Assembly (NCBI GenBank): GCA_030141605.1
Contig: JAQGDQ010000863.1
Span: 22,887 to 86,886, forward strand
Reading direction: 5' to 3'
DNA: 64,000 nucleotides
Source of the DNA: Tubiluchus corallicola
Lineage: Eukaryota; Priapulida; Priapulimorpha; Priapulimorphida; Tubiluchidae
Shown: positions 21,101 to 24,100 of the stretch, piece by piece
Numbering within the stretch: position 1 is the stretch's first letter
How the letters are laid out: each line of letters starts with the position of its first letter
The notes under the pieces: generated by a model
What the model was told of the DNA's origin: nothing
Database searches by the model: none
Seen by the model: only the letters and a program-made list of their open reading frames with translations
Position numbers and translations under genes: made by a program

Positions 21101-24100
21101 AGTGGGTTTTTGTGAATGTATAAGATGCACTAAGTCCCACTTTTTCCCCTTTTAGCATGAATTTGTGTGAGTTCAAATTCTGCGTGGCTTCTTTGTCAAA
21201 CAAATGTTAGGTATGACAATTTTGAGTAGCAGTCACTTGTAATACTTAACCCTTTCACTACGTAGTTGCTTTTTAACTGGTCCACATTGACTTTTACACA
21301 TTTGACTATAACTTCTTGTGGTGTGTTACTAAAACAGAATCTTCTAAATAAACAAGTAGTTGTTCATTATTGAATATTAAATATAAGTTTTATTTCTACA
21401 CAGGCGCACACACACACACGTGCGCACGCACACAGACACACACACACGTGTGCACACAATCATAAATAAGCATGTACTTGTATTTACAAAGCAGTTTTCA
21501 CAAAAGACACAATACTAATCCATAATACGCAATCATTTTATAAGAATGCAGAACAAGCGACTAAACACGTTTTACCAACTATCAACAAGCAATTTTGCAT
21601 GAGAACATACCATACAGGACAGTATTGTGGAATGCACCTGGCTTCAGACACTGATTGGCTGGTTAGAGTTACTTGTTGCAAAACAACCCCAATCCCATGG
21701 GTCTTAAACTTTTCAACAATGTTTTTACATTGCCGTAGCAGTGAAATAAGCAGACCTGGGTAACTGCACTTATTGCTGAACTTGGGCAGCAGTCTACTGC
21801 CTTCAGTCCCTTACATGAAAAACATGGGCGGCAGTGTGCCACCTTCTGTAGTGAAAGGGTTAAGTGTCCGAAAATTACTAACTTGTCCTGTCTTTGTATG
21901 TTTTTGTTTGATATGTACATAACATTACCTTTTATCTACAAAACACGTTGTTAACAATATTAAATGTTTTACGAGATTCTGAAGCCCTTCTTTGTCCTTC
22001 AAAATCAGTTGTGTTCAATTTAAATTAGACAGCTTGAAGCCAAATCAAATTTTTCCAAAATTTGGCCAAGGTGCATTTAATATTACTTTTGTTAATAAAC
22101 AACTTGCAAAGTACAAAACTTTGGATCTATACTTTTGTTAATAAACAACTTGCAAAGTACAAAACTTTGGATCTATACTTTTGTTAATAAACAACTTGCA
22201 AAGTACATAATGTTGGATGTTTTTTCCAGTTGTGGGTCCCACCAACTCCCCCCAGCGATGAAAATGACATGTACATCGATTACAGCGCGTCTTCTCTGTA
22301 CGAAACAAGGATCATGTCCGAATCCCAGCTGCCGCCCATCTACGTGAAACGGGACCATCACAAACGTCTCAGAGTCGACGTTAATGGTGAGTTCACACTG
22401 CACGTTAATGGTGAGTTCACACTGCACGTTAATGGTGAGTTCACGCTGCACGTTAATGGTGAGTTCACGCTGCACGTTAATGGTGAGTTCACGCTGCACG
22501 TTAATGGTGAGTTCACGCTGCACGTTAATGGTGAGTTCACACTGCACGTTAATGGTGAGTTCACACTGCACGTTAATGGTGAGTTCACACTGCAGTGATT
22601 TGAAAAGACACAGTTCAGTACTTAACTAAGTCTCAAAGAACTTTCTAAGCAAAATTATATAACTTTGCTTTACGCTTACCTGCTTGAAAGACTTATGTCA
22701 CTAGAAAAGAAAATTCCTAGTAATTTGAAGTGTTTGTGGCAACTGCTAAAACGTCATTGACTCACCTTCCCAGTGTGCACCACTGACTCACCAAAAAAAC
22801 ATTTTTAATCTTATTGAGAATATAAGGTGTTTTAAAATTTTACTTAGTTAGTGACGTGTGCGCTACGAATGCTCTGATTATTTTTTCAAACTTTACAAAA
22901 TGTTATCTAAACTTGTTTCAAATGACCGTTCATCAAAATGGCTGCGCCTAACGGTCATTGTTATAATTTATTATTGTCATAATTTACAAGTTCAATACAG
23001 CATTGCTGTTAAGGCAAGCTGTGTGTGCAAAAAGACAGCGTGTTCGTGATACAAAATTTCGGGACCTATTTTCTTAATTGTAAGTGAAGGGTGTTCTTGT
23101 GCTTTAATTGTAGAATTTCTGTTCTAGTTCGCAAGCATCGTCCAATAAAGTCCGAGCACAGCCACACGCAGAGATCGCTGTTTGACAAGCCGGCGGCGGC
23201 CGTGCTGAAGATGAGACGCGATGCAAAACTGCAGAAGTTGAAAACTTCCGTACTGGAACCGGTTACAGATAAACCCGAGTGGTTGATTCACGAGGACTGG
23301 GCTCTCCTACAGGTAACGTGATTCACTTTTGCAAGATTTCGTTCTCCGTAACGTGTGTTTCATGTAAAACTAAGTAAAGTGCATTTGGTATGTCATTGTT
23401 AACTGCCAGAATGTTCCTTTGAAGTCTGGTTAGTCTACAATAAGAATGTCATAAATGCCTCTTGGAACAGCTTTTGTTTAAGTAATGTCATAAAACAGGT
23501 CATTAGAGAAATCCTATTCATGTATAAACACTAAGTAAGGTATGAAGAAGTAGCAACAATATTTTTGATTATTGATTAGTTACAATGCTTTGTATAACTC
23601 GTAGACACAGAATTGTATTTTTTCTTCTTCTTTGCTTGTAAAATACTTCAGTACACGGTGCTACAAAAAACACTCACAGAGAAAACCTATTCATAGAGAT
23701 GTTCACGGCAAGACCGAAACTTGGGTTATTATCAATGATATCCTACTGAGATGGGTGACTGAAGGAGGAGAAATATTTCATCCACTTTCGGGCATCCTCT
23801 TTCTATGAGTGAACCTGCAAAGCATGCGAATGACTGAGCTAGTATTGAACCCACGGCACAAATGTGGAAATCTTTCCACTCAGCTGTTCAACTTGCCACT
23901 AGTTCACCTGCTAAAAATCTGTCTAAACTGGGGAAAACTGCTTATAACTTTGATACACTAAGATTTCATTATAGCAAAGCAGATGCTTCCACATGCCTGG
24001 ATATAAGTAATGATGAACTTTATTAGGTACGGTGTAAATCAACAGCTGCATTAGTCAAATTGTTGAAAATTAGTTCTCATTAAGCAGCTAGTTAATTATA

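Follow-up and report, generated by a model that had tools for sequence, protein, structure and literature searches.

Nine identical in-frame splice donors in a minisatellite spanning an exon end of an EP400-like gene of Tubiluchus corallicola

A minisatellite in the human IFI6 gene (G1P3, 6-16) is said, by the title of Turri et al. 1995, to provide multiple splice donor sites. In lancelets, tandem duplications of exon/intron boundaries termed 'mirages' are described for Adh3, the globins BflGb6 and BflGb9, and TnC. The Adh and TnC mirages are reported to generate no aberrant mRNAs, and PGBD5 to carry similar, imperfect repeats (PMC3902484); one paper allows that mirage signals could serve as cryptic sites. 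For IFI6, two downstream repeat units are reported to act as donors, with three mRNA species as the result (PMC4526556). Repeats at the exon-intron boundaries of human duplicated genes are discussed alongside the Rogers model, in which an intron is gained by duplication of an AG/GT proto-splice site.

We analysed a 64,000-nucleotide stretch of Tubiluchus corallicola DNA (the window), in which TRF finds a 24-bp minisatellite at 22378-22594 on the plus strand, with 9.0 copies and 98% matches. Its unit consists of the last 9 exon bases and the first 15 intron bases at an exon end of an EP400-like gene. The nine head-to-tail units occupy 22378-22593, and each carries ACGTTAATG followed directly by GTGAGTTCAC, meeting at ATG/GTGAGT. 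The sole difference between copies is silent (ACA or ACG, both Thr), and the G-type copies form a block, copies 3-6. The first intron bases of the nine donors lie at 22387+24k (k=0-8). Donor 1, the predicted main donor, is the GTGAGT at 22387-22392 (+), and donors 2-9, also GTGAGT, begin at 22411, 22435, 22459, 22483, 22507, 22531, 22555 and 22579 (22411-22584, +). Whichever of the nine donors the exon is extended to, it ends in phase 1 with the frame still open. Should every donor of the array be skipped, the frame would close at an in-frame TGA immediately beyond the final unit (22596-22598, +). TRF, unit comparison and frame reading thus reproduce exactly the nine tandem, in-frame, same-phase donors of a 24-bp repeat that an earlier note on this DNA had described. 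As that note also held, each donor choice would add one GEFTLHVN octapeptide, 0-64 residues in all; the insert would follow the PPIYVK stretch and precede the EP400-matching exons downstream.

The exon ending at donor 1 (22230-22386, +; 52 residues and one base) was placed by its acceptor context and by homology to solved EP400, and the next exon (23128-23312, +; ...DWALLQ) by the same homology. Both match the solved E1A-binding protein p400 (EP400), whose matched chains we take to be human. The joined exon query matches EP400 with an E-value of 1.3e-100, and its pieces align in window order: a helicase stretch, then PPTPP...PPIYVK, then DWALLQ...RNRYENVI...REEGK, the last of which is presumably the SANT region. 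The first piece of the query aligns weakly (i-Evalue 0.052), and its residues 247-297 (exon 13506-13664) are unaligned to EP400. With donor 1 in use, the intron covers 22387-23127 (+; 741 bases) and ends in the acceptor TTCTGTTCTAG. Splicing of donor 1 to this acceptor (23127/23128) would yield ...RVDVN-V-RKHRP..., with near-junction gaps of one and two residues relative to EP400 and without the octapeptide. The order of the flanking exons and the donor 1 junction indicate that the array spans a genuine exon/intron boundary, and donor 1 would be the ancestral junction, since the EP400 alignment there needs no octapeptide.

In the reading we favour, 24 bp lying across the 3' end of the EP400-like exon (9 exon and 15 intron bases) would have been tandemly duplicated again and again, and donor 1, the putative ancestral site, would carry most of the splicing. 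The array is then probably a near-neutral, donor-spanning minisatellite, next to which a minor in-frame ladder of +8n residues is possible. Main use of the first donor would also account for tolerance of the array, because with splicing at the upstream site the protein stays as it was and the remainder of the array becomes intron.

The arrangement is real, tidy and rare, and it belongs to a known kind. Like the lancelet mirages, it is a minisatellite-like duplication of a boundary with the splice signal copied in many units, in this case in all of them (9/9 donors identical), and its 24 bp fall within the 10-72 bp unit range reported for the Adh3 mirage. The array, known here from its DNA, therefore has the structural features of a mirage. 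It differs from the lancelet cases in lying in an EP400-like gene, at a donor boundary, with nine near-identical copies and a frame open throughout. As in IFI6, a single exon end is supplied with several donors by a minisatellite; gene and unit are unrelated, however, and in IFI6 two downstream units are reported to be in use. The resemblance to the Rogers model lies in the tandem duplication over a splice signal; here, in contrast, the donor of an existing intron is multiplied and no new intron is shown. The EP400-like gene thus joins the few described boundary minisatellites, and a natural pre-mRNA with nine identical donors would provide a competition test of how the spliceosome chooses among equal donors.

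The donors are equal by the splice-site scoring that the earlier note had suggested: each of the nine scores 10.3, on a rough weight matrix, with a U1 pairing energy of -9.2 kcal/mol. On the same matrix, ten other donors of the EP400-like gene score 7.6 to 12.1, and the second-best GT within 22230-23127, outside the array donors, scores 5.93. The nine copies are good donors that sequence does not rank, and because they are equally strong, sequence gives donor 1 no intrinsic advantage. The predicted RNA folding of the array is not unusual and is no better than that of shuffled sequences (z 0.22).

Four further donor-spanning arrays were found in this genome, two of them in the window. The first (3586-4324, +) has 33-bp units and starts at an exon-like end, CAG/GTAAAC at 3617/3618; a GTAAAC donor context stands at both of its ends, and several units contain an in-frame TAG. 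The second (48412-49065, minus strand) has 177-bp units, in each of which an exon-like end and its GTAATT donor are copied. Its gene call rests on neighbouring polycystin domains and an open frame, and its minus-strand exon has no meaningful PDB match; polycystin-domain sequence lies nearby at 43634-44842. The third (L039, G000:C5:111000-118500) is a 33-bp array in a PDCL3-like gene with 39 perfect CAGGTAAGT donors counted from the exon end. The fourth (L040, G000:C217:15500-22000) is a 37-bp array with 15 perfect donors, whose first unit starts at the donor of an open-frame exon. Homology confirms L039 among the four, and the rest are open frames ending at a donor: the L039 exon alone gives a weak match only (E 5.7), and when the following exon is attached at donor 1 the pair matches a solved PDCL3 chain with E 1.8e-20 and is gapless at the junction.

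We read the frame on past the first donor in these arrays, covering the first 12, 4, 6 and 6 donors, respectively. Three of these arrays have a stop ahead of donor 2 (3586-4324, 48412-49065 on the minus strand, and L039, where it comes before the next perfect donor), and in L040 the frame is shifted at donors 2 and 3 and donors 4-6 lie behind a stop. These genes, if they work, would need their first donor, since a stop or a frameshift accompanies use of the later ones. Of the five arrays, that of the EP400-like gene alone is open throughout, and comparing it with the closed-frame arrays of the same genome would separate splice choice from selection at the protein level. Because its downstream donors stay in frame, unlike those of the other four, low-level isoforms of +8, +16 and more residues would be tolerated.

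The same comparison bears on which end of the EP400 array does the work. In constructs with duplicated donors the proximal site can be favoured, and the EP400 frame is open up to the ninth donor and closed shortly beyond it, as would be expected if the last, intron-proximal donor were dominant and the exon were constitutively 192 nt longer, giving a protein with a fixed eight-unit repeat. Solved EP400 has no such insert, however, and late donors in L039 and in the two other window arrays would bring stops, so we regard this reading as very unlikely. Donor 1 is the most likely working site of the EP400 array.

The earlier note had gone further and proposed a protein segment 'controlled purely by donor choice'. 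If several of the nine donors were used appreciably, the linker that precedes the SANT-like region of EP400 would vary by an insert of 0-64 residues; the shared phase and open frame, the silent variant and the equal scores speak for this, as does the IFI6 precedent. However, the lancelet boundary repeats are reported to leave regular mRNAs unaffected, and none of the other four arrays preserves the frame at a donor later than the first. Moreover, an open frame is not improbable by chance: of 200000 24-mers drawn at random from the window, 128594 (0.64) are open in a given frame, and openness alone is therefore no sign of selection. A ladder of isoforms at this array is possible, but appreciable use of several donors seems rather unlikely. 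The junction-spanning minisatellite and its nine equal donors stand, whereas its role as a working device under donor choice is not supported. We are similarly doubtful of the array as a tunable protein spacer, which would combine a graded ladder of 0-8 GEFTLHVN units with copy number varying between individuals; if it were one, a single minisatellite would set both the range of alternative splicing and the length of the protein.

We also counted donor motifs across the assembly. Three occurrences of ATGGTGAGT at 6-36 nt gaps give 51 matches on 7 contigs of the 343.5-Mb genome against 0 for the backwards pattern, which is more than chance. Tandem CAGGTAAGT triples give 348 matches against 29 backwards, a contrast that overstates independence because overlapping units are counted and not arrays; single CAGGTAAGT motifs give 5468 against 2250 backwards. 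Among the matches listed of these 348, arrays on 10 contigs were inspected by eye only: two abut a recognisable exon (L039 and L040), and no exon was recognised at the first donor in the other eight.

No array overlaps the myosin-head exon stretches at 30 of 93 matched loci, several of which overlap one another; the comparison used the matched stretches. The nearest array (L052, 1.9 copies) starts 48 bp after such a stretch, and the next (L073) ends 101 bp before one. As none overlaps these 30 loci, donor-spanning arrays look uncommon per exon. On contig G000:C917, myosin exons occur in two opposite-strand copies (20400-23919 and 90660-94210), several with identical scores, which could be either an inverted duplication or an assembly effect.

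Within the EP400-like gene, arrays cover 20.5% of the span 3319-40058, as computed from merged TRF rows with the first array extended to 3586. One of them, a 46-bp array of 2.9 copies (22084-22218, +), stops 11 bases short of the acceptor of exon 22230-22386. Arrays contain 2 of the 14 located donors against 2.9 expected at random, which leaves a targeting of arrays to donors unsupported for this gene, and none of the 15 located acceptors (about 3 expected; P 0.03 at random). These numbers are small and come from an incomplete exon set whose edges were placed by the analyst; the donor at 26166 is of poor quality and possibly misplaced, and the acceptor entered as 3318 is one base off. Random growth of arrays with acceptor hits removed fits the placement, and attraction to donors does not. 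At most, the counts hint that arrays are tolerated over donors but not over acceptors. Four more intronic arrays (13779, 27593, 31649 and 37022) begin 43 to 115 bp past a located donor.

Short near-identical repeats are prone to assembly error, the copies here are 98% alike, and one lancelet mirage is reported to be aberrantly assembled in the draft. The copy number could accordingly be a product of assembly, a collapsed or expanded array whose true allele differs. We consider this highly improbable: the 217 bp fit inside one ordinary long read, and the 343.5-Mb assembly yielded a single full-length match to the locus, with no second full-length copy found among the 40 scored of 976 candidates.

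Just past the array, some 75 bp (22624-22698) belong to an interspersed repeat, 84-89% alike at the other 39 of the 40 scored places. Three 5S rRNA matches are scattered across the 64 kb (12031-12149, 38892-39010 and, on the minus strand, 52223-52341) and are perhaps 5S-derived short elements.
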